DNA of 64,000 nt from Bacteroidia bacterium (GTDB lineage Bacteria > Bacteroidota > Bacteroidia > NS11-12g > UBA9320): the NCBI GenBank assembly GCA_018402155.1, contig JAGYJG010000001.1, positions 2,252,501 to 2,316,500 of the forward strand. The letters run 5' to 3'. The stretch's first letter is position 1, and each line of letters begins with the position of its first letter. Positions 5,651-61,641 of this stretch are shown in pieces. Below the pieces are notes generated by a model, which made no database searches, was not told where the DNA came from, and was given only the letters and a program-made list of their open reading frames with translations. The position numbers were made by a program, and so were the translations under genes.

Positions 5651-6610
5651 ATGGCAAGATTTCAAAGAACAAAAATGCTGAGATTAATAAGAAAATATAG
5701 TAACATCGTTGTAGCTACTGCGCTACTTTTGGTAGGTAGCACATTGCCAACAAATGCTCAACGCTGGTTTAAAACAAGCTCACTAGAATTCGGATTATTG
5801 GGTGGTATGAGTCATTACTCTGGAGATCTTACCCAGTCCTTTTTAGAAACTAAAGGATTTAAACCTAGTGTAGGTATTATCTCTCGTTATAGTCCAGGGG
5901 AGCGTTTCACCTTTAGACTAAGTGCTCAGTATGGCAGCATAGAAGGCAGAGATGATTGGTACGAAGATCCCAACTCTCCAACTCGAAGAAACCTAAGCTT
6001 TAGGTCAGACCTTTGGGATTTTACAGGGGCTTTAGAGGTAAATCTTATACCTATGGTAGCCAGAAGAAAATCAGGTGTATATCCCTATCTTTTCACTGGT
6101 GCTAGTGTGTTTAGGTTTAATCCAGAGGCGCAGTTTACATATGAACCTGGTAATGCAATGGAGAGCTATTTGACTCCAGAATTATATGGACAGTTGGCCG
6201 ACAGAGATGGTGAATATATTGAATTGCAACCTCTAGGCACCGAAGGTCAGCAAACTACAGAGTTTAACGATCGAAAGAGATACGCTCTAACTCAAATCGC
6301 CATTCCTGTAGGGGGTGGATTGAAATTTAAAATGAATCATAAATGGACTTTTGGTTTGGAATATGGCGTTCGTTTTACATTCACAGACTATTTGGACGAT
6401 GTAAGTGGAACCTATGTGGACCCTGTCCGTCTGCAAGGTCAGTATGGTCCAATGTCTGCTGCACTTTCTAACAGATCGCCACAGTTTGAGCCTGCAACGT
6501 TGGAAGGTACATCACGTGGAGATTCCGATAAATATGACTTATATGGTCTGCTCGGTATTTCACTTACCTACAGATTATACGGTAATAGGCCTGTTTGTCC
6601 AACATTTTAA
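5651..6610 (+). CDS. PorG-like outer-membrane protein (DUF6089 family), copy 1
   Basis: A 319-aa protein with an N-terminal signal (hydrophobic stretch about 16-35, ending NAQ) and a beta-barrel-like body. The signature FGLLGGMSHYSGDLTQ with a later FRLSAQYG and the FTDYLDDVSGTY segment near the C-terminus match DUF6089. That family includes PorG, an outer-membrane component of the type IX secretion machinery in Porphyromonas. In Porphyromonas porG also lies beside bamA, as here. It is followed by a second, shorter paralogue. The role in T9SS is by family and context; which of the two copies is the true PorG cannot be told from sequence. Confidence 0.8.
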   Translation: MARFQRTKMLRLIRKYSNIVVATALLLVGSTLPTNAQRWFKTSSLEFGLLGGMSHYSGDLTQSFLETKGFKPSVGIISRYSPGERFTFRLSAQYGSIEGRDDWYEDPNSPTRRNLSFRSDLWDFTGALEVNLIPMVARRKSGVYPYLFTGASVFRFNPEAQFTYEPGNAMESYLTPELYGQLADRDGEYIELQPLGTEGQQTTEFNDRKRYALTQIAIPVGGGLKFKMNHKWTFGLEYGVRFTFTDYLDDVSGTYVDPVRLQGQYGPMSAALSNRSPQFEPATLEGTSRGDSDKYDLYGLLGISLTYRLYGNRPVCPTF

Positions 6611-25450: not shown

Positions 25451-25542
25451 AAGTGAAGGGTGCAAGGTCTCTTATTATGTCTACATTAACAAATAATTAT
25501 TTTTTTAAAAAAATGACTTGGAACTTTAAATACAATACCATA

Positions 25543-25550
25543 CTTTCGTT
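25543..25550 (+). promoter_or_regulatory. Possible -7 box of the first giant adhesin gene
   Basis: TACTTTCG differs from TAnnTTTG by one base; a TTG (in ACTTGGAAC) lies about 20 bases upstream. It is 28 bases before the ATG at 25579. No GCAACC-N16-GTCTAA pair is present here, unlike the second adhesin gene. Confidence 0.3.
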
Positions 25551-25578
25551 TTCTACATTTAATCAAAAAACAAACAAA

Positions 25579-28500
25579 ATGAAAAAACATCACTATTTTC
25601 TGAAAGGTTTTTTAACCTTATTATTGCTATGGACAGTAGGTTCTGTCAGCGCACAGACTTATTGCGCTAGCAATGCTACTTCACAATTTGACTCTAAATG
25701 CGATAGAGTAGAACTCGTTGGGAATACAGTAACTATAGACGAAAATTCTTCTGCTGCTGGATGTCAAGTATATACAGACAATACAAATGTGGCAGCTGCT
25801 GATTTGTCTCCTGGAGGTATTTATACTGTGACCATAACTCAAGGCACTTGTGGTGGCAACTACACAAGGAGATCAAATGCTTGGATTGATTTTAATAATG
25901 ACGGTGATTTTACAGATCCTGGAGAGATGCTTAGCAACGGATCGGGAACCGGCGTAAATGCCATAACATTTACTGTGCCGTGTAACGCAGTTGCAGGAAA
26001 TACTAGAATGCGTGTTATTGTAGTGGAACAGGGTTTTAATCTGACAAATCCATGCGGAACGTATACTTGGGGTGAAACCGAAGATTATACTGTAGATATA
26101 CAAGCTCCTTCAGGTGGCCTTTCGTCTAACTTTTTTGCCCCTGACACAGCTTTTGTTGGTACTTTAGTGACTTTTGTAAACAGCAATCAGTCTGGTTATA
26201 TATCGCACAATTGGACAGTTGATGGTTCTCCATACACTACTACAAATGCATCTCATATTTTTAGTTCTACAGGATCTTATTCAGTTAAGTTAGTTAGCGA
26301 AAATTGCTTGGGTAAGGATTCTACTACCAAGACGGTAGTGATCATAAACCCAACAGCTCCACCAGTTTCAAATTTTGTATCGGACAAAAACTTAGTTGAG
26401 TTATTTGAGCCGTTCAAACTAATAGATTTAAGTTCTAATGGTGCTACGTATTGGGATTGGGTAATCAGCAATGGAGTAGATACTATAGATGGTGATGATC
26501 AACCCGACTTACGCGGAGGTGATCCTCGTGTACATAAAAATCCAAGTGTTCTAACGGGCAATTATGTTGGTGCAGTAGATATAGGTACGTGGTCAGTAAC
26601 ACTTACTGCTAGTAACTCCATACCGGGTTCTTCTCCGCTTACCAAGACGGCATACATTACAGTACAGCGATCTAGCTACAATATGGGAGCAGCTACGGCA
26701 CTACCAGCAGGTATTATAACTACGTCAAGTGGTGTGTTGTATGATAAAGGCGGGCCATTTGGCAACTATTCTCCAAATGAAACACTAGAAGCACTTATAG
26801 CCCCTTGTGGTGCACAAAGTGTGACATTGGATTTTTCTGTATTTGAAGTAAATGCAAATGCGACACTACGTATATATGATGGAGTAAATGCATTAGGCAC
26901 CGCACTGCATCCTGGCAACGGATTTACGCTAGGTAATGAGCCTACTGGTTCTATAACGGCTAATTCAGGAGCTATGTATTTACTTTGGGTAGCAACAGCA
27001 GGAGCAACTACAGATGGATTTGAAGCGAATTGGACTTCGGTAGCTGGTACAAGTGCAGCGCCTGTAGCCAATTATGTATTGCCAGGTACAACATTATTTA
27101 ACGCAGTACCTGTTACTTTTGAAAACACGTCAGCCAATGCACAGGGTAGTACTGCATTTGAGTGGACACTCAGCGGTCCAGAGACGGGTACGTATAACAC
27201 AAGAGACTTTGGATATACCTTCCTATCCAACGGTAACTATACCCTTTCTCTCAAAGTTACTTCTTGCGATAACCAAGTGAGTACTTCAACCCAAAGTTTC
27301 ACAGTAGTTTCACCAACTACGCCTACTAGTTTAGATTTTGTTGCAGATAATCAAAGACCATCGATAGGCGATGCAGTTACAATAACAGCTACAAGTGATA
27401 AGGCAAACAATTGGGTTTGGGATATTTACCCAGTAACTGGTTGGACAATAGATGCACAGGGCAATACGTCCAATGAGCGTTCGTTTACTTTCAATCAGCC
27501 TGGAGCGTATACAGTACAATGTAGAGGGTATAACTCTACGAATGAAGCAGCATCAGAGGCGACGGTAGTAAAAACATCGTATATAATAGTGGTAGAACAC
27601 TGTACACCTATTATAGGAGTAACTACTTCTTCAGATGTAGGAATAAGCTTTGTAGGAGTAACCGATCCAATTTCAGGAACATCGTTTGAAAATGCTAGTA
27701 CAGCAGGAGATGCCTATACGGACTATTCAGAATTAGGAGCTATTGATTTGAACTTTGGAGGAACGTACAATTTTGAGGTACGCAGAACAACCAATGTAAA
27801 TTCAATGTCGCGTAAAATATGGATCGATTGGAATGTAGATGGAGATTTTGATGATGCAGGTGAAGAAGTAGCGATGGAAGCTACGGCGAACACTATGTCG
27901 TGGACGGGTTCGTTTACGGTTCCTGATGCATCTACTGCTTTTGAGGCGAATACTCGAATGCGGGTAGGAGTATCGTATGATACAGACCTTAATGAGCCTT
28001 GTGGCGCAGCGTCTAATCCAAATGCAAACCGTGTAGGAGAGTTTGAAGATTACTTGATACGAGTAGTAAATGATGGTGACGCTCCAATCATCACCTTAAA
28101 CGGTTCAGATACTGTATTTGTAGAGCAAAATGCACTTCCAGCGTATGTTACAGACGGAGCTACAGCACTAGATCCTTCGCAAGGTGATGTGTCAGCAAAT
28201 TTGGTAATGACCTCAGACCTAGATCAAACCCTTGCAGGTGTTTACTATGAAGTATGGAATGCAATGGATGCTTCTGGCAACCCTGCAAAACCAGCAATAC
28301 GCGTAATCTACGTAGTAGCTGACCAAACAGCGCCAGTAATTACGGTAAATGGTAGTGCAGATACAACAATAGAAGTAGGGACACCTTGGGTAGACCTAGG
28401 AGCTACAGCACTAGACAACAAGGAAGGAGATCTTAGCTCTGCTATCATCACCTCGGGTAGTGTGAATGAAAATCTTTTGGGTAACTATACTATAACATAC

Positions 28501-29619
28501 GATGTGCAAGATAACCAAGCAAATGCTTCATCAGCAGTACGTATAGTACGAGTGGTAGATACACAATCGCCAATTATCGACAATGCTAGTGCAGATAAGT
28601 CAGGTGCTTGCTGGAAAGTAGAGGTACAGTTACGAGATATTTTTGCAGATATCACCACGGCAAGTGATAACTATAATAGCTTGGGAAGTGGACTATTATT
28701 CAAAGCTAATCCGGCATCGCCACAAGGAGGAGCAGCAGTAGACACTCGTTTTCAAGGTACTACATCAGTAACATATACAGCTACAGATGAGAGCGGCAAT
28801 GTAACTACACAGTGTGTAGATTATGTAGTGCGTGATTATGTTCCACCAGTTATTGATTTGCGTACGCTAGATGTTGTAAAACATGATGTAAATACGCCTT
28901 ACACACCGGTAAGTGCTGTAGCTACAGATAATTTGTATTCCAATACTCAAATCAGTTTGACCTCGTCATCTAATGTAGATCCTTACACATTGGGAACCTA
29001 CCAAGATACCTATGTTGCAACAGATGCAGCAGGAAATAGAGCGACTAAAGTAAGGACAGTAAACGTGGTAGACGAGATAAGCCCTGAGATCAGTGGGAAG
29101 TCTGGAGGGGTTCTAAGAGTAGGAGTAGGTTCTGCTGTAAATGCAGTAGACTATATTACTTTCACAGATAACTATGATGCCCCAGGTGATTTATTTGCTA
29201 ACCATACATTGATATACAATGACATCAATATGCAAGAAGCAGGTAATTACTCTGCGGTATTCCAAACAGTAGACAACTCTGGTAACATGTCTGACAAATT
29301 TACTCTTGTGGTAGATGTACAGTATTACTACGATGTTATCACAAACAGTGTGAATGATGTAAGTTTAGATGATTTACTACGAGTGAATCCAAATCCAACA
29401 ACTGGAGATGTGAATATCACAGTAAATCTTCCAGAGAACGAAGAGATCAATCTAGCGGTATTCAACACAATGGGTCAGCAAGTGGCTTTAGTGAAAAATG
29501 GTAAAGCACAAAACGGAACATTCAACGTAAGCCTAGCAAATCAAGCAAATGGAGTATACTACGTGAAAATGAACGTACAAGATAAGATCATTACTAAGAA
29601 AGTAATATTGAACAAGTAA
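25579..29619 (+). CDS. Giant multidomain T9SS surface adhesin, copy 1
   Basis: 1346 aa from ATG 25579, with a clean signal (MKKHHYFLKGFLTLLLLW..SVSAQ). Order of domains: GEVED (about 27-175, ending WGETEDYTVDI), PKD (184-255), PKD (257-362), CUB-like (367-490), PKD (492-577), PKD (579-674), second GEVED (674-832, GEFEDYLIRVV), two DUF5011-type Ig-like domains (834-994), HYR-like domain (995-1090), further Ig-like domains, and a C-terminal type A sorting domain (about 1268-1346, NPNPTTGDVNITV). This is a surface-exposed adhesive protein carried by T9SS. The residues after about 179 are almost identical to those of the next gene, so the two arose by duplication. The start is not at the earlier ORF opening, which is out of character. 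Confidence 0.85.
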   Translation: MKKHHYFLKGFLTLLLLWTVGSVSAQTYCASNATSQFDSKCDRVELVGNTVTIDENSSAAGCQVYTDNTNVAAADLSPGGIYTVTITQGTCGGNYTRRSNAWIDFNNDGDFTDPGEMLSNGSGTGVNAITFTVPCNAVAGNTRMRVIVVEQGFNLTNPCGTYTWGETEDYTVDIQAPSGGLSSNFFAPDTAFVGTLVTFVNSNQSGYISHNWTVDGSPYTTTNASHIFSSTGSYSVKLVSENCLGKDSTTKTVVIINPTAPPVSNFVSDKNLVELFEPFKLIDLSSNGATYWDWVISNGVDTIDGDDQPDLRGGDPRVHKNPSVLTGNYVGAVDIGTWSVTLTASNSIPGSSPLTKTAYITVQRSSYNMGAATALPAGIITTSSGVLYDKGGPFGNYSPNETLEALIAPCGAQSVTLDFSVFEVNANATLRIYDGVNALGTALHPGNGFTLGNEPTGSITANSGAMYLLWVATAGATTDGFEANWTSVAGTSAAPVANYVLPGTTLFNAVPVTFENTSANAQGSTAFEWTLSGPETGTYNTRDFGYTFLSNGNYTLSLKVTSCDNQVSTSTQSFTVVSPTTPTSLDFVADNQRPSIGDAVTITATSDKANNWVWDIYPVTGWTIDAQGNTSNERSFTFNQPGAYTVQCRGYNSTNEAASEATVVKTSYIIVVEHCTPIIGVTTSSDVGISFVGVTDPISGTSFENASTAGDAYTDYSELGAIDLNFGGTYNFEVRRTTNVNSMSRKIWIDWNVDGDFDDAGEEVAMEATANTMSWTGSFTVPDASTAFEANTRMRVGVSYDTDLNEPCGAASNPNANRVGEFEDYLIRVVNDGDAPIITLNGSDTVFVEQNALPAYVTDGATALDPSQGDVSANLVMTSDLDQTLAGVYYEVWNAMDASGNPAKPAIRVIYVVADQTAPVITVNGSADTTIEVGTPWVDLGATALDNKEGDLSSAIITSGSVNENLLGNYTITYDVQDNQANASSAVRIVRVVDTQSPIIDNASADKSGACWKVEVQLRDIFADITTASDNYNSLGSGLLFKANPASPQGGAAVDTRFQGTTSVTYTATDESGNVTTQCVDYVVRDYVPPVIDLRTLDVVKHDVNTPYTPVSAVATDNLYSNTQISLTSSSNVDPYTLGTYQDTYVATDAAGNRATKVRTVNVVDEISPEISGKSGGVLRVGVGSAVNAVDYITFTDNYDAPGDLFANHTLIYNDINMQEAGNYSAVFQTVDNSGNMSDKFTLVVDVQYYYDVITNSVNDVSLDDLLRVNPNPTTGDVNITVNLPENEEINLAVFNTMGQQVALVKNGKAQNGTFNVSLANQANGVYYVKMNVQDKIITKKVILNK

Positions 29620-29682
29620 ATCGATTGTTATAAAAATAATCTAATGGATAAGGCCCGACAAACGTCGGGCCTTTTTTATTTT
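26115..29682 (+). repeat. Long direct repeat, copy 1 (about 3.57 kb)
   Basis: Nearly identical to 30537-34104 at a constant offset of 4422 bases, with no insertions or deletions noted. It runs from the first PKD domain through the stop codon and terminator. Differences are few and clustered, for example near 26724, 28284-28300 and 29292-29310. The 5' boundary is not sharp: identity grades in across about 60 bases. Confidence 0.9.
29650..29677 (+). terminator. Rho-independent terminator after first adhesin
   Basis: AAGGCCCGAC-AAAC-GTCGGGCCTT is a perfect 10-bp stem with a 4-base loop, followed by a T run. An identical copy follows the second adhesin. Confidence 0.9.
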
Positions 29683-29802
29683 CGTTTCCTAATGAAACGT
29701 ACAAAGTACTCTATCCTCAAGATATACAACGAGTTAAGACTTTTAGTAGAATATTGTCATGTATTTTTTTTGTATATTATAAGAGAAATGATGTTTTTTT
29801 TT

Positions 29803-29830
29803 GCAACCATTTTGTGAAAGTCGTGTCTAA
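29803..29830 (+). promoter_or_regulatory. ECF-type promoter of second adhesin gene (GCAACC-N16-GTCTAA)
   Basis: GCAACC at 29803-29808 and GTCTAA at 29825-29830 with 16 bases between, preceded by a T-tract. The AAC in the -35 and GTC in the -10 are typical of extracytoplasmic-function sigma factors. The same pair and spacing occur before the ECF sigma gene at 34116-34143. Confidence 0.65.
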
Positions 29831-29883
29831 CTTTGTACTTTTAGATTTCAATTTAAGCAAACACTAATAAATAATAAGTAAAT

Positions 29884-32800
29884 ATGAAAAGAAACATTAC
29901 AAAATTTGGCTTTAACGGCATCAGTAAAACTATTATGCTCTGTTTTGCAGCAGTATTCTGTTTTACGACTAACACATCAGCCCAATACGCTACTCCTAGC
30001 GGACATTATTATGGCACTTGTTGGACTAACGGTACGTTTACCTACGAGAGGTGGTCTGCTATTGATAATATCCGAATAGAAGACGGATCAGGAAATGAAA
30101 TTTATAGTAAATCTGGTGTAGGAAACCAGTGCCAACCTGTAAATACTGCTGGCTCACATTACTATTTAGCAGAGCCAACATCAGCATTTTCATTAGCAGC
30201 GGGAGCAAATTATACATTGTTTATCACTACTACCAATAGGTTGGGAGCAAATCGTTCAAGCGCTGGTATTTGGTTTGATTTTAGTGGCAATGATAACTTT
30301 GGAGATGCAGGAGATTTATTTATTGCCCGAACGAACTTCCCTATAAATAGTGAGCAAGCTATACCTTTTAGTGTTCCTTGTAACATATCCAATGGCGACG
30401 TTCGTTTGCGTATTAGAACGGATGATAATTTCACAACTTGGCAGCAAAATCAGCACACAAATGGCGGGTTATTTACAGCACCTACTTTTGCGTATGGTGA
30501 GTCTCATGATTATACATTTACTTTAGGTACTCCAGCAGGTTTAAGTAGTAACTTTTTTACCCCTGATACAGCTTTTGTTGGTACTATTGTAAATTTCGTA
30601 AACAGCAATCAGTCTGGTTATATATCGCACAATTGGACAGTTGATGGTTCTTCATACACTACTACAAATGCATCTCATATTTTTAGTTCTACAGGATCTT
30701 ATTCAGTTAAGTTAGTTAGTGAGAATTGTAATGGTAAGGATTCTACTACCAAGACGGTAGTGATCATAAATCCAACAGCTCCACCAGTTTCAAATTTTGT
30801 ATCGGACAAAAACTTAGTGGAGTTATTTGAGCCGTTCAAACTAATAGATTTAAGTTCTAATGGTGCTACGTATTGGGATTGGGTAATCAGCAATGGAGTA
30901 GATACTATAGATGGTGATGATCAACCCGACTTACGCGGAGGTGATCCTCGTGTACATAAAAATCCAAGTGTTCTAACGGGCAATTATGTTGGTGCAGTAG
31001 ATATAGGTACGTGGTCAGTAACACTTACTGCTAGTAACTCCATACCGGGTTCTTCTCCGCTTACCAAGACGGCATACATTACAGTACAGCGATCTAGCTA
31101 CAATATGGGAGCAGCTACGGCACTACCAGCAGGTATTATAACTACATCAAGTGGTGTGTTGTATGATAAAGGCGGGCCATTTGGCAACTATTCTCCAAAT
31201 GAAACACTAGAAGCACTAATAGCCCCTTGTGGTGCACAAAGTGTGACATTGGATTTTTCTGTATTTGAAGTAAATGCAAATGCGACACTACGTATATATG
31301 ATGGAGTAAATGCATTAGGCACCGCACTGCATCCTGGCAACGGATTTACGCTAGGTAATGAGCCTACTGGTTCTATAACGGCTAATTCAGGAGCTATGTA
31401 TTTACTTTGGGTAGCAACAGCAGGAGCAACTACAGATGGATTTGAAGCGAATTGGACTTCGGTAGCTGGTACAAGTGCAGCGCCTGTAGCCAATTATGTA
31501 TTGCCAGGTACAACATTATTTAACGCAGTACCTGTTACTTTTGAAAACACGTCAGCCAATGCACAGGGTAGTACTGCATTTGAGTGGACACTCAGCGGTC
31601 CAGAGACGGGTACGTATAACACAAGAGACTTTGGATATACCTTCCTATCCAACGGTAACTATACCCTTTCTCTCAAAGTTACTTCTTGCGATAACCAAGT
31701 GAGTACTTCAACCCAAAGTTTCACAGTAGTTTCACCAACTACGCCTACTAGTTTAGATTTTGTTGCAGATAATCAAAGACCATCGATAGGCGATGCAGTT
31801 ACAATAACAGCTACAAGTGATAAGGCAAACAATTGGGTTTGGGATATTTACCCAGTAACTGGTTGGACAATAGATGCACAGGGCAATACGTCCAATGAGC
31901 GTTCGTTTACTTTCAATCAGCCTGGAGCGTATACAGTACAATGTAGAGGGTATAACTCTACGAATGAAGCAGCATCAGAGGCGACGGTAGTAAAAACATC
32001 GTATATAATAGTGGTAGAACACTGTACACCTATTATAGGAGTAACTACTTCTTCAGATGTAGGAATAAGCTTTGTAGGAGTAACCGATCCAATTTCAGGA
32101 ACATCGTTTGAAAATGCTAGTACAGCAGGAGATGCCTATACGGACTATTCAGAATTAGGAGCTATTGATTTGAACTTTGGAGGAACGTACAATTTTGAGG
32201 TACGCAGAACAACCAATGTAAATTCAATGTCGCGTAAAATATGGATCGATTGGAATGTAGATGGAGATTTTGATGATGCAGGTGAAGAAGTAGCGATGGA
32301 AGCTACGGCGAACACTATGTCGTGGACGGGTTCGTTTACGGTTCCTGATGCATCTACTGCTTTTGAGGCGAATACTCGAATGCGGGTAGGAGTATCGTAT
32401 GATACAGACCTTAATGAGCCTTGTGGCGCAGCGTCTAATCCAAATGCAAACCGTGTAGGAGAGTTTGAAGATTACTTGATACGAGTAGTAAATGATGGTG
32501 ACGCTCCAATCATCACCTTAAACGGTTCAGATACTGTATTTGTAGAGCAAAATGCACTTCCAGCGTATGTTACAGACGGAGCTACAGCACTAGATCCTTC
32601 ACAAGGTGATGTGTCAGCAAATTTGGTAATGACCTCAGACCTAGATCAAACCCTTGCAGGTGTTTACTATGAAGTATGGAATGCAATGGATGCTTCTGGC
32701 AATCCTGCAGAACCAGCACTACGCGTAATCTACGTAGTAGCTGACCAAACAGCGCCAGTAATTACGGTAAATGGTAGTGCAGATACAACAATAGAAGTAG

Positions 32801-34041
32801 GGACACCTTGGGTAGACCTAGGAGCTACAGCACTAGACAACAAGGAAGGAGATCTTAGCTCTGCTATCATCACCTCGGGTAGTGTGAATGAAAATCTTTT
32901 GGGTAACTATACTATAACATACGATGTGCAAGATAACCAAGCAAATGCTTCATCAGCAGTACGTATAGTACGAGTGGTAGATACACAATCGCCAATTATC
33001 GACAATGCTAGTGCAGATAAGTCAGGTGCTTGCTGGAAAGTAGAGGTACAGTTACGAGATATTTTTGCAGATATCACCACGGCAAGTGATAACTATAATA
33101 GCTTGGGAAGTGGACTATTATTCAAAGCTAATCCGGCATCGCCACAAGGAGGTGCAGCAGTAGACACTCGTTTTCAAGGTACTACATCAGTAACATATAC
33201 AGCTACAGATGAGAGCGGCAATGTAACTACACAGTGTGTAGATTATGTAGTGCGTGATTATGTTCCACCAGTTATTGATTTGCGTACGCTAGATGTTGTA
33301 AAACATGATGTAAATACGCCTTACACACCGGTAAGTGCTGTAGCTACAGATAATTTGTATTCCAATACTCAAATCAGTTTGACCTCGTCATCTAATGTAG
33401 ATCCTTACACATTGGGAACCTACCAAGATACCTATGTTGCAACAGATGCAGCAGGAAATAGAGCGACTAAAGTAAGGACAGTAAACGTGGTAGACGAGAT
33501 AAGCCCTGAGATCAGTGGGAAGTCTGGAGGGGTTCTAAGAGTAGGAGTAGGTTCTGCTGTAAATGCAGTAGACTATATTACTTTCACAGATAACTATGAT
33601 GCCCCAGGTGATTTATTTGCTAACCATACATTGATATACAATGACATCAATATGCAAGAAGCAGGTAATTACTCTGCGGTATTCCAAACAGTAGACAACT
33701 CTGGTAACATGTCAAAGAAATTCACACTTCTTGTAGATGTACAGTATTACTACGATGTTATCACAAACAGTGTGAACGATGTAAGTTTAGATGATTTACT
33801 ACGAGTGAATCCAAATCCAACAACTGGAGATGTGAATATCACAGTAAATCTTCCAGAGAACGAAGAGATCAATCTAGCGGTATTCAACACAATGGGTCAG
33901 CAAGTGGCTTTAGTGAAAAATGGTAAAGCACAAAACGGAACATTCAACGTAAGCCTAGCAAATCAAGCAAATGGAGTATACTACGTGAAAATGAACGTAC
34001 AGGATAAGATCATTACTAAGAAAGTAATATTGAACAAGTAA
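29884..34041 (+). CDS. Giant multidomain T9SS surface adhesin, copy 2
   Basis: 1385 aa from ATG 29884. After the signal (ending TSAQ) comes a different N-terminal domain, 40-50 residues longer than in copy 1: GHYYGTCWTNGTFTYERWSA and NYTLFITTTNRLGANRSS, then a diverged GEVED-like part (IWFDFSGNDNFGDAGDLF, FSVPCNISNGDVRLR, YGESHDYTF). From about residue 220 onward it repeats copy 1 (PKD, PKD, CUB-like, PKD, PKD, GEVED, Ig-like domains, HYR-like, type A sorting domain). It carries an ECF-type promoter, so it may be expressed under conditions different from copy 1. Function is inferred to be adhesion or surface coating. Confidence 0.85.
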   Translation: MKRNITKFGFNGISKTIMLCFAAVFCFTTNTSAQYATPSGHYYGTCWTNGTFTYERWSAIDNIRIEDGSGNEIYSKSGVGNQCQPVNTAGSHYYLAEPTSAFSLAAGANYTLFITTTNRLGANRSSAGIWFDFSGNDNFGDAGDLFIARTNFPINSEQAIPFSVPCNISNGDVRLRIRTDDNFTTWQQNQHTNGGLFTAPTFAYGESHDYTFTLGTPAGLSSNFFTPDTAFVGTIVNFVNSNQSGYISHNWTVDGSSYTTTNASHIFSSTGSYSVKLVSENCNGKDSTTKTVVIINPTAPPVSNFVSDKNLVELFEPFKLIDLSSNGATYWDWVISNGVDTIDGDDQPDLRGGDPRVHKNPSVLTGNYVGAVDIGTWSVTLTASNSIPGSSPLTKTAYITVQRSSYNMGAATALPAGIITTSSGVLYDKGGPFGNYSPNETLEALIAPCGAQSVTLDFSVFEVNANATLRIYDGVNALGTALHPGNGFTLGNEPTGSITANSGAMYLLWVATAGATTDGFEANWTSVAGTSAAPVANYVLPGTTLFNAVPVTFENTSANAQGSTAFEWTLSGPETGTYNTRDFGYTFLSNGNYTLSLKVTSCDNQVSTSTQSFTVVSPTTPTSLDFVADNQRPSIGDAVTITATSDKANNWVWDIYPVTGWTIDAQGNTSNERSFTFNQPGAYTVQCRGYNSTNEAASEATVVKTSYIIVVEHCTPIIGVTTSSDVGISFVGVTDPISGTSFENASTAGDAYTDYSELGAIDLNFGGTYNFEVRRTTNVNSMSRKIWIDWNVDGDFDDAGEEVAMEATANTMSWTGSFTVPDASTAFEANTRMRVGVSYDTDLNEPCGAASNPNANRVGEFEDYLIRVVNDGDAPIITLNGSDTVFVEQNALPAYVTDGATALDPSQGDVSANLVMTSDLDQTLAGVYYEVWNAMDASGNPAEPALRVIYVVADQTAPVITVNGSADTTIEVGTPWVDLGATALDNKEGDLSSAIITSGSVNENLLGNYTITYDVQDNQANASSAVRIVRVVDTQSPIIDNASADKSGACWKVEVQLRDIFADITTASDNYNSLGSGLLFKANPASPQGGAAVDTRFQGTTSVTYTATDESGNVTTQCVDYVVRDYVPPVIDLRTLDVVKHDVNTPYTPVSAVATDNLYSNTQISLTSSSNVDPYTLGTYQDTYVATDAAGNRATKVRTVNVVDEISPEISGKSGGVLRVGVGSAVNAVDYITFTDNYDAPGDLFANHTLIYNDINMQEAGNYSAVFQTVDNSGNMSKKFTLLVDVQYYYDVITNSVNDVSLDDLLRVNPNPTTGDVNITVNLPENEEINLAVFNTMGQQVALVKNGKAQNGTFNVSLANQANGVYYVKMNVQDKIITKKVILNK

Positions 34042-34104
34042 ATCGATTGTTATAAAAATAATCTAATGGATAAGGCCCGACAAACGTCGGGCCTTTTTTA
34101 TTTT
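30537..34104 (+). repeat. Long direct repeat, copy 2 (about 3.57 kb)
   Basis: Matches 26115-29682 at offset 4422, including the terminator. The 5' side of each repeat differs, so only the C-terminal part of the adhesin was duplicated or kept homogeneous. Confidence 0.9.
34072..34099 (+). terminator. Rho-independent terminator after second adhesin
   Basis: Identical 10-bp stem and AAAC loop to the terminator at 29650-29677, followed by T6. It lies between the adhesin and the sigma factor, so the sigma gene needs its own promoter. Confidence 0.9.
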
Positions 34105-34115
34105 TGCTTTTTTTT

Positions 34116-34143
34116 GCAACCATTCAGTCATTATGGTGTCTAA
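34116..34143 (+). promoter_or_regulatory. ECF-type promoter of the sigma factor operon (GCAACC-N16-GTCTAA)
   Basis: GCAACC (34116-34121) and GTCTAA (34138-34143) with 16 bases between, exactly as before the second adhesin, and after a T-tract. It lies 17 bases before the sigma factor TTG start, so the sigma probably drives its own transcription. Confidence 0.7.
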
Positions 34144-34160: not shown

Positions 34161-34694
34161 TTGATTAGTGAGGAAGAACTTATACAACGCTGTAAGAACA
34201 ACGATCAGTCTGCTCAAAAAATGCTCTTTGAAAAGTATGCCAATAGAATGATGGCAGTTTGCATGAGGTACTGTAAAAACCGTGAAGATGCTAAAGATTT
34301 GCTTCACGACGGGTTTTATAAAGTTTTTGTAAATATTAAGAAGTTTAAAGGGGATAGTGCTATTGCCACTTGGATGACCAGAGTTTTTATAAACCTAGCG
34401 TTGAATTCACAACGTATAGGGAGAAATAAATATGACCATTACGAATTTGATCCAGCAATGGAGAAAGAATCCGTTGTTGCTGTTTCAGAAGAAATAGACA
34501 CAATAGCCCCAGAAGTAGTGCTTGCTGCACTACAACAACTTCCTGATAAGTATAAAATAGTACTAAACATGTATGCTGTAGAAAGAATGTCTCATAAGGA
34601 AATAGCCAAAAAATTGGGTATAACCGAGGGTTCGTCTAAAAGCAGGCTTTCCAGGGGACGTGTAATGCTAAATACTTTGTTAAAACATAACTAG
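34161..34694 (+). CDS. ECF-family RNA polymerase sigma factor
   Basis: A 177-aa sigma-70 family protein with a TTG start. Region 2 is residues about 20-85 (LFEKYANRMMAVCMRYCKNREDAKDLLHDGFYKVFVNIKKF), then IATWMTRVFINLALNSQR. Region 4 is 115-172 (LQQLPDKYKIVLNMYAVERMSHKEIAKKLGITEGSSKSRLSRGR), a helix-turn-helix for the -35 element. Regions 1 and 3 are absent, the hallmark of the ECF group. It is followed 10 bases later by a probable anti-sigma protein and is itself preceded by the ECF-type promoter. It is the likely regulator of the second adhesin. Confidence 0.92.
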   Translation: MISEEELIQRCKNNDQSAQKMLFEKYANRMMAVCMRYCKNREDAKDLLHDGFYKVFVNIKKFKGDSAIATWMTRVFINLALNSQRIGRNKYDHYEFDPAMEKESVVAVSEEIDTIAPEVVLAALQQLPDKYKIVLNMYAVERMSHKEIAKKLGITEGSSKSRLSRGRVMLNTLLKHN

Positions 34695-34704
34695 AGGCTT
34701 TAGA

Positions 34705-35133
34705 TTGGATAATTTACAACATATCGACGAACTGCTCAGAAAGGCATCCCAAGCGCCCGCCAATGCCTTGGTGAATGACGCTGACTGGGTGGTAGTTGAA
34801 AGAAGATTGAAGCAGAGAAAAAACCGCATTTACGCTGTGTGGTTTTTTCTAGCTTTAATTTCTGTCGGGAGCTTAGGACTATACTTTGGTTCGTTGCCCC
34901 AAACCAATTCAAAAATTCCTTTAACGTCTGAAGCAGAGATTAACCTTAATAAAGGGGAAAAATCGATACAGAATTTGCATAAATCGGTAGTTAGTCAGAC
35001 TGATATTAAAGAGAAAAAATATAGGATTGCAAAGGTATCGAATAGTGGAAAGGAGAAAATTACTGCTCATACTGATACGATAGTTTTTGGAACTGCTAAT
35101 CATCTAGTATCGGATAAAGATGATATACTGTGA
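34705..35133 (+). CDS. Probable anti-sigma protein, N-terminal part of an anti-sigma/barrel gene
   Basis: 142 aa from a TTG start. About 45 residues form a soluble cytosolic region (IDELLRKASQAPANALVNDADWVVVERRLKQRK, similar to the N-terminus of Bacteroidota anti-sigma proteins fused to barrels), then a transmembrane helix (residues 43-63: VWFFLALISVGSLGLYFGSL), then a polar, lysine-rich periplasmic linker. It ends at a TGA inside the 14-base overlap with the next gene. In relatives a single chain continues into an outer-membrane barrel, so this may be the first part of a frameshifted gene. Confidence in the anti-sigma role rests on position after the sigma and on the layout. Confidence 0.65.
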   Translation: MDNLQHIDELLRKASQAPANALVNDADWVVVERRLKQRKNRIYAVWFFLALISVGSLGLYFGSLPQTNSKIPLTSEAEINLNKGEKSIQNLHKSVVSQTDIKEKKYRIAKVSNSGKEKITAHTDTIVFGTANHLVSDKDDIL

Positions 35134-36049
35134 GCAAGAGTATACTGAAAGTATACAAAAGCAAGGCGATCTAAAAGAATATCAATACTCAACTTATGAA
35201 ACAATTGTCCTAAATTCAAAAAAGAGTTTCGCAGATGAAATGTATGAAGATTCCGATACACCATTTAGGGTTAAGAGGTTAGTAAAAAGTATGGAATCAT
35301 TACCTATAGAAACATACTCTGTAGATGCAAGTAGTAGTACAATACAGAAAAATAACTACTGGGAGTTTGGAGTATCGTTTACTCCGGGTTTATCTAATAA
35401 GCTTATCTCAGAAAACAGTTTACTGAGTGGGCTGATTAATCGTAACTATAACGAAGCTGTAGCGAATAGCGAGAGTTCATCTTTTGCCAATACATTCGGG
35501 TTTAATGTGCAATATCATGCCAAATCATGGTTTTTAGCTACAGGTATTTTCAGAACACAGAGAGGTGAAAAGGTGAATTATAATTATCAAATAACAGAGA
35601 GCGTATTTGAGACCGATCAAAAGACATTGGATTATATTCCACTAGACCCTGCGGCATATGAATGGGTAGTATATTCTGGGTCAAATTCTTATCATTTTCT
35701 TGAAATACCTTTAAACGTAGGGTATAAAATGTCAGTTTCACGTAACTTTGAGGTAAGAAGTCAGTTAGGTGTATCTTATATGGCACTGCTCAATAGGGAG
35801 GGTAAAATTGGGAGCTTTAAAACACTGCAGCTACAAGATATCAAAGATTTGCAATTTAACCCACACAATATAGCAGCCAACGTAAAAACGGGGGTTTATT
35901 GGACTAATTCTCATTTTGCTTTGGGAGTAGAGCCTGTGTTTGGTGTTAATTTAAATACGTTACGTTCTGCTGAAACTTCAGCTATAAAGACAAAACCGTA
36001 TGGTTATGGTATTAATATCACAAGTTCGATTAAACTGTTTAAACGATGA
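35120..36049 (+). CDS. Outer-membrane beta-barrel protein of the sigma operon, no signal peptide
   Basis: A 309-aa protein with a PorT/barrel-like C-terminus (WEFGVSFTPGLSN, FGFNVQYHAKSWFLATGIF, FLEIPLNVGYKM, RNFEVRSQLGVSYMALLN). About 80 polar residues precede it and no signal peptide is present, which is incompatible with an independent outer-membrane protein. The frame opens only at 35108 after a TAG. I infer it continues the preceding anti-sigma chain (linker plus barrel) with a one-base shift between 35108 and 35131. The alternative is two translationally coupled proteins. Confidence 0.7.
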   Translation: MIYCEQEYTESIQKQGDLKEYQYSTYETIVLNSKKSFADEMYEDSDTPFRVKRLVKSMESLPIETYSVDASSSTIQKNNYWEFGVSFTPGLSNKLISENSLLSGLINRNYNEAVANSESSSFANTFGFNVQYHAKSWFLATGIFRTQRGEKVNYNYQITESVFETDQKTLDYIPLDPAAYEWVVYSGSNSYHFLEIPLNVGYKMSVSRNFEVRSQLGVSYMALLNREGKIGSFKTLQLQDIKDLQFNPHNIAANVKTGVYWTNSHFALGVEPVFGVNLNTLRSAETSAIKTKPYGYGINITSSIKLFKR

Positions 36050-38466
36050 GGCGGTTAGTATTCTATATAGTCTCTTGTATTACTGTATTTGTAGCGCAGG
36101 CACAGATATTAGCTCCACTAGGTAAAGGTTTACCTGCTGCACCGGACAAAATAGCGAGTCATCAAAGTGGTTTAGCTGCTGCTTTTGACAATAGAGATAA
36201 TCGTATAAATGTACACGTGTGGAATGGAGATTTTTGGTACCCGCTTCCTACACCGGTATTACCTATAACTACTAGTGACTACAAAATCATTGACCTAATT
36301 AGTTTTAACAATGAATTGTACCTTATGTCGGGACATGAATTTAGTTCGGTGAACTCAACTAACAGCATTTTGAAATGGGACGGACAGAAGTGGATTGATA
36401 TGAGCGACAGTACTATAGTGCAAAGTTTCAGTGTTTCACGTCTGTTTATAGAAAACAGTAAACTAAAATGTATTGGAAAATTTAAAAATGGAATAGAGGA
36501 ATCGAATGTAGCAAGTTTAAATGGTACTGTTTGGAAATTAGAAGGTAATCTTATAACTAATAATATACAGCGGGATAACTTTACTAGTATTGTATATCAA
36601 AATAATACTGTTTTTGCTACGGGGACATTTACCAATCCTCAAAATGCCAATTTATCTTTGGTGAAATGGAATGGACAGGAGTGGACGCTTACTGATTTTC
36701 CACCATTTTTAGCAAAAAATATTGCTTTAGGAACCTTTAAAGGCAATATTGTGGCATATGGGACTTCTAATTTTATTACTGCACCTATCAAAATTAGTCA
36801 AGGGGAGAATTGGGCAAACTTAGCAGAGGGTCTGGAGAATTACACAGTAGAGAATGTTTCACAATTTGCCGAGCTCGATGGCCAATTACTGGCATTGGGG
36901 AGTTTTGTGCATAATCAGACAACAGAAAGAAACTATTTAATGTTGTATAACGGTAAAGAATGGAAACCATCGACTATCTCATTGAATAAAATAGATCAGA
37001 TATATAGCGATGGTAAGAGTGTAATGTTAAGTGGCGATTTTGATGACAATGGAATCTTAAGAGGTGTTGGACAGGTAATTGCAGATAAAGCGCAAGTAGT
37101 AACTCGTGTATACAACGATAAAAATAGCAACTGCATAAAAGAGGATGGTGAAGATTGGTTACCACATTATCCGGTACAGTTGAGTGCATTGGATATTATA
37201 CCTACTGAAAATAATGGGGTACTATATGCCCAGATTGAAAAGGACAAGATATACACCATAAATGCAGCAAATTATAATCACTACGTGCCGACGTGCCCAG
37301 CGCTAGAACTAGAAGCAAAAGAATATAAATCGTACTTTACAACTGCTTTTGGCGCTAAGCAAAAAGGTGGAGTGAGTGATGCGAAAATATATTTGACTGA
37401 TAATATTGGAAATAAATATAGTTCTGGAGAGCAACGAAATGCTACACTATGTGTCACAAATCTCGGAAGCCAACCCATAACGGACGCTAAGGTAACGTTG
37501 AATCTACCACTTGGTATTGCTGATTTTACAGCAGACCAAAATCCAGAGACTGTTTTGAATAGCGTAGCAACTTGGACGGTAAGTCTCTCTGCAAAAACCA
37601 ATGTTTGTATAGATCTTGATTACACTCTAGAGGGTTTTGATGACCAAGAACTTCTTGCAAATGTGGAATTAACTGGAGGTGTTATGGACGAAGATGTCGC
37701 TAATAACAGGTCTTCTTTTGTATATTATTCTGGTGAAACTAGGCCCAACAATAAACAGTGTTTGAATGGAAAGCAAATAGAACCTGCTGAAAAAGAATTG
37801 CGTTATAAGATTAATATTTCCAATAATAATTCAGGGGTAGTAAACGCCATTAAGGTAGTAGATGTGTTAGATGAAGATATAGTTAGAAGTGCAGCAGGAA
37901 TTTTTATTACTACGAGTCATCCTGGGGCTACTACATATTCAGACTATGAATTCATTATAAATGAAAGCGGCAATCGTGTGTTGAAAATAGTGACTACTAT
38001 AGAAGGAGTCAGTATAGAGCCATCTACAGATAGTGGGAATAATAGTACTGCTTTCGTAGATTACCAAATTGGTATACGCAGCGACTTGATGAATCGCGAG
38101 GCGGAAATATGCAATACAGCTAAAATATACCTTTCTTTTGCTAATGGGGTTTACGGTGAGGCCATTACTACCAATACTGTATGTAGCTATATGAGCGAAA
38201 CTTTGAGTGTAAATGGTGCAGCGTTACTACCGGTAGAGCTGGAGGGATTAGAAATAGGTCCTAATCCGGTTAAGAGCAGTGTAGCTGTAAAAAACGGCAG
38301 CCATAGAGCAGTGATTGTTAAAATAGCCAACAACTTAGGTCAAGAGTTGAATGAGATAAAAGTGGAGAGGGGTTCAAATGTATCAATTGACGTATCTGGG
38401 TATAGGGCTGGAGTATATTTTATATATGCCAACGGTCTTTTTGCCAAAAAAGTTGTGATACACTAG
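36046..38466 (+). CDS. T9SS surface protein with WxG-type repeat, DUF11-like domain and type A sorting domain
   Basis: An 806-aa protein overlapping the previous stop by ATGA. The signal peptide ends VAQAQ. Residues about 40-340 carry repeated W(N/D)G-x2-W motifs (VWNGDFWYPLP, LKWDGQKWIDM, VKWNGQEWTLT, LYNGKEWKP), which suggest a beta-propeller-like domain. A Ca-binding type stretch VYNDKNSNCIKEDGEDW follows, then a conserved-repeat DUF11-like domain (NATLCVTNLGSQPITDAKVTLNLP) and a C-terminal type A sorting domain (IGPNPVKSSVAVKN..ANGLFAKKVVIH). As the third gene of the sigma operon it is a probable cell-surface cargo regulated by it. Confidence 0.82.
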   Translation: MRRLVFYIVSCITVFVAQAQILAPLGKGLPAAPDKIASHQSGLAAAFDNRDNRINVHVWNGDFWYPLPTPVLPITTSDYKIIDLISFNNELYLMSGHEFSSVNSTNSILKWDGQKWIDMSDSTIVQSFSVSRLFIENSKLKCIGKFKNGIEESNVASLNGTVWKLEGNLITNNIQRDNFTSIVYQNNTVFATGTFTNPQNANLSLVKWNGQEWTLTDFPPFLAKNIALGTFKGNIVAYGTSNFITAPIKISQGENWANLAEGLENYTVENVSQFAELDGQLLALGSFVHNQTTERNYLMLYNGKEWKPSTISLNKIDQIYSDGKSVMLSGDFDDNGILRGVGQVIADKAQVVTRVYNDKNSNCIKEDGEDWLPHYPVQLSALDIIPTENNGVLYAQIEKDKIYTINAANYNHYVPTCPALELEAKEYKSYFTTAFGAKQKGGVSDAKIYLTDNIGNKYSSGEQRNATLCVTNLGSQPITDAKVTLNLPLGIADFTADQNPETVLNSVATWTVSLSAKTNVCIDLDYTLEGFDDQELLANVELTGGVMDEDVANNRSSFVYYSGETRPNNKQCLNGKQIEPAEKELRYKINISNNNSGVVNAIKVVDVLDEDIVRSAAGIFITTSHPGATTYSDYEFIINESGNRVLKIVTTIEGVSIEPSTDSGNNSTAFVDYQIGIRSDLMNREAEICNTAKIYLSFANGVYGEAITTNTVCSYMSETLSVNGAALLPVELEGLEIGPNPVKSSVAVKNGSHRAVIVKIANNLGQELNEIKVERGSNVSIDVSGYRAGVYFIYANGLFAKKVVIH

Positions 38467-61191: not shown

Positions 61192-61641
61192 TCAATGAGT
61201 ATAGAGTATGTCTGAATTCCACCCATGTAATCTCAGAAGTGTACTGTTGCCATCTCCACGCAAAACGGTTATATCGAATTCTTCTTTACCAGAAACCAGT
61301 GCTTCGCAATTGTCTTTTCCATCTAAGCATAACTTCAAGTCTCTTCGGGACATTTCTAGTGTGTTTTGTGTTGTATTTTCGGATGCTAATAGTTTCGTTT
61401 TAAGGTCTTTACAACCACCGCCGTGGCTATATTCGATATTCATACAATCTCCTATGATGCTTACGTCGCGGATACGAGGTTCTGCATCGTCTTTTGCTTT
61501 TTCGAAACCTCTACTGCTTACTATTACAGACCTTTGGCACTTTTCTGAAGGCAGCTCTTTTTCGCCACAAAGCAGCTCTTTTTCGCCACAAGCGCAGAGC
61601 AGGAAAATGCAAAGGCTTGTAATTTTTAGTATATAGTTCAT
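61192..61641 (-). CDS. Small lipoprotein with a 7-residue repeat beside its lipobox
   Basis: A 149-aa protein from ATG 61641 with signal ILKITSLCIFLLCAC and lipobox Cys. Right after it the 7-residue unit CGEKELL is repeated (CGEKELLCGEKEL). The rest has a small domain with DVSIIGDCMNIEYSHGGGCKDLKTKLLAS and later cysteines. It is related to the neighbouring lipoprotein (61656-62072) and starts 14 bases after that gene's stop, so the two form an operon. No known family. Confidence 0.75.
   Translation of the reverse strand: MNYILKITSLCIFLLCACGEKELLCGEKELPSEKCQRSVIVSSRGFEKAKDDAEPRIRDVSIIGDCMNIEYSHGGGCKDLKTKLLASENTTQNTLEMSRRDLKLCLDGKDNCEALVSGKEEFDITVLRGDGNSTLLRLHGWNSDILYTH
61551..61592. repeat. 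Tandem repeat of a 21-base unit in lipoprotein gene
   Basis: Unit GCAGCTCTTTTTCGCCACAA plus A occurs at 61551-61571 and again at 61572-61592 with one mismatch at the last base. It preserves the frame and duplicates the cysteine after the lipobox. Confidence 0.85.

Follow-up and report, generated by a model that had tools for sequence, protein, structure and literature searches.

Two matching sites precede an adhesin gene and a sigma factor gene

In the window, by which we mean the whole stretch of 64,000 nucleotides analyzed here, the gene of an ECF sigma factor lies directly behind that of a large surface protein, and the question that this locus raises is whether the sigma factor activates both genes. 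An earlier note had proposed such a regulation from a motif, GCAACC-N16-GTCTAA, that occurs upstream of either gene. Both copies of the motif proved to be exact, one at adhesin 2 (29803 GCAACCATTTTGTGAAAGTCGTGTCTAA 29830) and one at the sigma gene (34116 GCAACCATTCAGTCATTATGGTGTCTAA 34143), each placed after a T-tract, whose last T is at 29802 in the case of adhesin 2. From the first base of GCAACC, the distance to the start codon is 81 bp for adhesin 2 (ATG at 29884) and 45 bp for the sigma gene (TTG at 34161). The identity between the two sites exceeds the 12 bases of the motif and comprises the T-tract and GCAACCATT ... GTGTCTAA; the middle is dissimilar. An intrinsic terminator is located upstream of each site (Table 1), so that adhesin 2 and the sigma operon each need a promoter of their own.

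With AAC in the -35 region, GTC in the -10 region, a spacing within the range of about 15–17 bp, a position upstream of the sigma gene and conservation among relatives, the site at the sigma gene is placed in the AAC/GTC class as a putative autoregulated ECF promoter. GCAACC would act as the -35 element and GTC(TAA) as the -10 element, 15–16 bp apart and with the T-tract upstream. A promoter scan with the E. coli-type sigma-70 consensus yielded nothing above shuffled sequences, and an Rfam search of the window returned no matches.

Table 1. Features of the locus (positions in the window)
Feature	Position	Strand	Description
Adhesin 1	25579..29619 (probable ATG 25579; longest ORF 25453-29619)	+	C-terminus 99% identical with that of adhesin 2, N-terminus different; upstream region lacks the ECF motif
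Intrinsic terminator after adhesin 1	29650..29673	+	Precedes the adhesin 2 site
Putative ECF-type promoter of adhesin 2	29803..29830	+	GCAACC (-35 region), N16, GTCTAA (-10 region); PWM and orthologous sites
Possible second, primary-sigma type element at adhesin 2	29828..29843	+	TAACTTTG and TACTTTTA; putative function
Adhesin 2, 1385 aa surface protein	29884..34041	+	PKD, GEVED, bacterial-surface Ig-like and T9SS type A sorting domains
Intrinsic terminator after adhesin 2	34072..34095	+	Precedes the sigma-gene site
Putative autoregulatory promoter of ECF type at the sigma gene	34116..34143	+	After T-tract; 12/12 genus orthologs, 56/79 homologues
ECF sigma factor of 177 aa, starting with TTG	34161..34694	+	Sigma-70 regions 2 and 4
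Predicted Dma-like anti-sigma factor, N-terminal part	34705..35133	+	~41 aa cytoplasmic helical part, membrane helix from ~residue 42, tether start
Dma-like protein, C-terminal part, other frame	35120..36049	+	Rest of tether and outer-membrane beta-barrel
Third operon gene, 806 aa T9SS-sorted protein	36046..38466	+	Overlaps preceding stop

Both sites are conserved in related genomes

Orthologs of the sigma factor with 66–81% identity were found in 12 other genomes of the genus. In all 12, the motif is positioned at -44 to -46, and its elements are separated by 15–16 bp of differing sequence; the strict pattern is missing from all six genus genomes that have no sigma ortholog. When the 19 genus genomes were searched for TTTTGCAACY-N13-17-TGTCWAA, 19 matches were obtained, 18 of which lie before a sigma or an adhesin gene, while the reversed control gave none. 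The nineteenth (G007:C27) appears to sit inside a coding region; this match and another extra one in the relatives (G020:C19) were taken as coding or chance. Across Bacteroidia, GCAACC-N15/16-GTC is found 40–62 bp upstream of the start in 56 of 79 homologues drawn from the genome collection, and several of the remaining ones show GTAACC or GCAGC variants. GTC is followed by TAA or TAT in the family of the window and mostly by ATAA or ATTAA in another family. Conservation of this putative promoter class extends well outside the genus.

For the adhesin genes, we employed a PWM trained on the sigma-gene promoters of other species only, with the window excluded. The adhesin 2 site of the window scores 30.5, a value that was reached in none of 20,000 simulated 250-bp regions, and no other site across the whole window exceeds 9.6. 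Sites 45–95 bp before adhesin genes were likewise detected in G006, G011, G014, G016 (adhesin 1), G017, L126, L128, L140 and G023; those at L142 and L190 are weak, and the PWM was negative at the adhesin gene of L139. The region upstream of adhesin 1 contains no ECF site by PWM in this genome, as the earlier note had implied, and none in G006; adhesin 1 of G016 and the adhesin gene of G023 do carry one. Against the proposed regulation stand the weak or missing sites in L139, L142 and L190, as well as G003 and G009, in which the adhesin site is present and a sigma ortholog was not found, though the adhesin contigs of both are incomplete. Since an adhesin gene upstream of the sigma gene occurs in only 15 of the 79 loci, all of them close to the clade of the window, the adhesin would be a lineage-specific target, and the operon of sigma factor, Dma-like protein and third gene would be older.

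The adhesin promoters contain an additional element

TAnnTTTG is the -7 consensus of the primary sigma factor of Bacteroidota (PMC9723704). This sequence is present exactly 8 nt after GTC in the adhesin promoters of six loci, G006, G016 (adhesin 2), G011, G014, G017 and L126, and in none of the 26 sigma-gene promoters; for the promoters of L128, L140, L142 and L190, visual inspection was used. At adhesin 2 of the window, TAACTTTG (29828-29835) overlaps the ECF -10 element, and TACTTTTA (29836-29843) is found at the position where the orthologs show TAnnTTTG. The extra element suggests two promoters or a basal activity, so the adhesin may be expressed from a second promoter as well, and its transcript may be diminished but not abolished by a deletion of the sigma gene.

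It could further be argued that the sigma factor is autoregulated, but that the adhesin is mainly transcribed by the primary sigma factor via the box just downstream, to which the ECF site would merely add. There is a precedent in Flavobacterium psychrophilum, where an adhesin operon is served by two promoters, each for another type of sigma factor (PMC9723704). However, a correctly spaced -33 TTTG is not conserved in the adhesin promoters, and GCAACY...GTC itself is kept at the adhesin, which argues that the ECF site is apparently under selection. We therefore regard a mainly primary-sigma-driven adhesin as possible but doubtful.

The extended motif is rare in the genome, and the strict motif accompanies the sigma ortholog

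The earlier note had left the frequency of the motif in the genome to be checked. In its extended form, the motif is confined to the two places at this locus: GCAACC-N14-19-GTGTCTA matches twice in the 2.49 Mb genome, both times here (control 1), and the 18-base form TTTTGCAACC-N14-GTGTCTAA, searched with at most three mismatches, retrieves the two exact sites and two matches with three mismatches (control 3). When up to two mismatches were allowed in the 12 fixed bases, no enrichment was seen, either in the window (2 seen versus 4.4 expected) or in the genome (107 versus 130 for the reversed control). As degenerate matches are no commoner than in the controls, extra regulon members cannot be claimed from weak sites. 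Rarity by itself is modest evidence, and it is the conservation that settles the question.

AAC/GTC elements are common to ECF promoters in general. The genome encodes other ECF factors (seven matches), one of these paralogues having GCAACC-N13-GTCC upstream of its gene, and the motif might thus be a generic ECF promoter recognized by a different ECF factor in the cell instead of the neighboring one. We consider this quite unlikely, because within the genus the strict motif is limited to members that carry the sigma ortholog, and lies before that gene, whereas other ECF genes exist in all genus genomes.

The site pair is most probably not a by-product of the adhesin duplication

Adhesin 1 and adhesin 2 form a tandem repeat (26127-29682 versus 30549-34104) of 99.1% identity, in which the C-terminal part of adhesin 1 is 99% identical to that of adhesin 2 and the N-terminus is different. 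The adhesin site might accordingly have arisen as a by-product of a duplicated adhesin 3′ end together with the sigma promoter, and conversion tracts can indeed reach so far: in G016 (L115), a damaged sigma-promoter copy (GCAACCTTTCTAATACACTAGCTTTCAA) is located within 230 bp before position 5717, behind the terminator after adhesin 1, which indicates that a conversion tract ran beyond the gene. Nevertheless, the adhesin 2 site of the window lies about 110 bp outside the duplicated block, and G011, G014 and G017, which have a single adhesin gene, possess both sites, with GCAACT-N15-GTCTAA at the adhesin and GCAACC-N16-GTCTAA at the sigma gene. These differing cores and spacers show that neither site was simply copied from the other, which bears out the statement of the earlier note that the pair is not just duplicated DNA and renders an origin by duplication highly improbable. 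A chance pair devoid of function is hardly conceivable: degenerate matches do occur as frequently as in the controls, but the sites are conserved across species at fixed distance from two unrelated genes.

A Dma-like gene follows the sigma factor gene

The sigma factor consists of regions 2 and 4 only (PF04542 and PF08281; TIGR02937 above cut-off) and is shorter than about 200 aa, as is characteristic of ECF factors. A SigP/PG0214-type assignment was rejected, as the protein stays below the cut-off of NCBIfam NF058625 (69.8 versus 130 bits), the model of the PG0214 family of ECF factors, which we take to be SigP.

The reading frame behind the sigma gene changes between 35108 and 35133 in the window, whereas most homologous loci contain a single long ORF; in the relatives, one continuous ORF of about 400–500 aa follows the sigma gene. 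This split could be an assembly error or a real mutation, which are indistinguishable from the assembly. A membrane helix is placed near residue 44 of the relatives' protein; the hydropathy peak starts at residues 41–54 in 36 of 39 Dma-like homologues and at residue 42 in the ORF of the window. In the AlphaFold model of an intact homologue, N-terminal helices (helix 25–65) lead into a disordered tether and then a barrel of eight strands. Residues 65–201 contain many polar residues and nearly all show a pLDDT below 50, and the barrel reaches a pLDDT of about 97, its best PDB matches being OmpA-like barrels (OmpA, OmpW, NspA). PF13568 is above cut-off in the Dma-like proteins of L128 and L190, and a Dma-like gene was recognized by HMM at 66 of the 79 loci. 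The Dma family is described as being built from an N-terminal cytoplasmic part, a membrane helix, a disordered tether and a C-terminal barrel, and its sigma partners are termed ECF21 (PMC13088901). The gene after the sigma factor is thus predicted to encode a protein with the architecture of a Dma-type anti-sigma factor.

The order of sigma, Dma-like and third gene is conserved, and the third gene encodes a T9SS-sorted protein in most loci. A C-terminal type A sorting domain (TIGR04183/PF18962) was found in both the adhesin and the third gene product, the latter barely exceeding the TIGR04183 cut-off. The adhesive function of the surface protein is predicted by analogy.

Proposed regulation and relation to known systems

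Based on the cross-species conservation and the rarity of the motif in the genome, which support the reading of the earlier note, we find it very probable that both sites are promoters read by the neighboring sigma factor, which would be held by the Dma-like protein and transcribe its own operon and the adhesin gene upon an envelope signal. Autoregulation and control of adhesin 2 are well supported by the sequence comparisons, though not proven. In the resting state, the sigma factor would be bound by the adjacent Dma-like anti-sigma factor, a protein predicted to extend from a barrel in the outer membrane to an N-terminal helix in the cytoplasm. An envelope signal would release the sigma factor, as we infer by analogy with Dma proteins. 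The free sigma factor would then transcribe its own operon (sigma factor, Dma-like protein, T9SS-sorted protein), resulting in a feedback loop, as well as the neighboring adhesin 2 gene, whose product would be exported by the T9SS. We regard the locus as a real module of the ECF/Dma type, very probably autoregulated and with a very small predicted regulon.

The Dma proteins of Bacteroides share the adjacent ECF sigma gene and the same anti-sigma domain plan, and dma2 likewise belongs to a three-gene operon; Dma1 and Dma2, however, control vesiculation and glycan-use genes, whereas the locus analyzed here stems from aquatic Bacteroidia, has a T9SS-sorted protein as third gene product and a T9SS adhesin as its presumed target (PMC13088901). 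The SM6 ECF promoters of F. psychrophilum are similar in having a CGT-type -10 element, an ECF and anti-sigma operon among their targets and a link to the T9SS, but cover several T9SS machinery genes, in contrast to the two-site regulon with a T9SS client described here (PMC9723704). SigP of Porphyromonas gingivalis, again an ECF factor, is likewise connected with the type IX secretion system (T9SS), yet acts with PorX/PorY and drives genes of T9SS components (PMC4800418). Within the literature searched, where absence is not proof, no printed precedent of the motif was found; the kind of system is known, and what appears to be new is this member, together with its consensus and target.

Anti-sigma factors of the Dma type were discovered recently, and their experimental study has, in the literature searched, been confined to Bacteroides. 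The locus and the 79 homologues provide a candidate promoter consensus for Dma-paired sigma factors (T-tract, GCAACC, 15–16 bp, GTC) and, for uncultured bacteria of aquatic habitats, link a Dma-like system with surface proteins that the T9SS secretes; the minimal regulon of two promoters makes the relation between sigma factor and target directly testable. A more speculative and rather improbable reading is that the Dma barrel senses a T9SS-exported partner, either the third gene product or the adhesin, and that the locus is a surface switch gated at the outer membrane with a regulon of two promoters. If so, the sigma factor would report on the surface decoration and adjust itself and one giant adhesin, and the split Dma gene in the window would unlink sensing from inhibition.

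Further observations on the adhesin genes

Within one genome (the window, G006 and G016), the two adhesin genes are 99.1–99.8% identical over 3.6 kb, and between species the adhesin DNA is 17–28% different; the N-terminal 200 aa and the promoters of the copies remain different. This pattern is indicative of concerted evolution of the pair. In several draft genomes (G004:C8, G007:C85, G010:C11, G012:C139, G015:C11 and G018:C178), the contig breaks off shortly before the sigma gene, as expected if the repeated adhesin genes broke the assembly. Elsewhere in the window, the sole tandem repeat detected comprises two copies of a 21-bp unit at 61551-61591.
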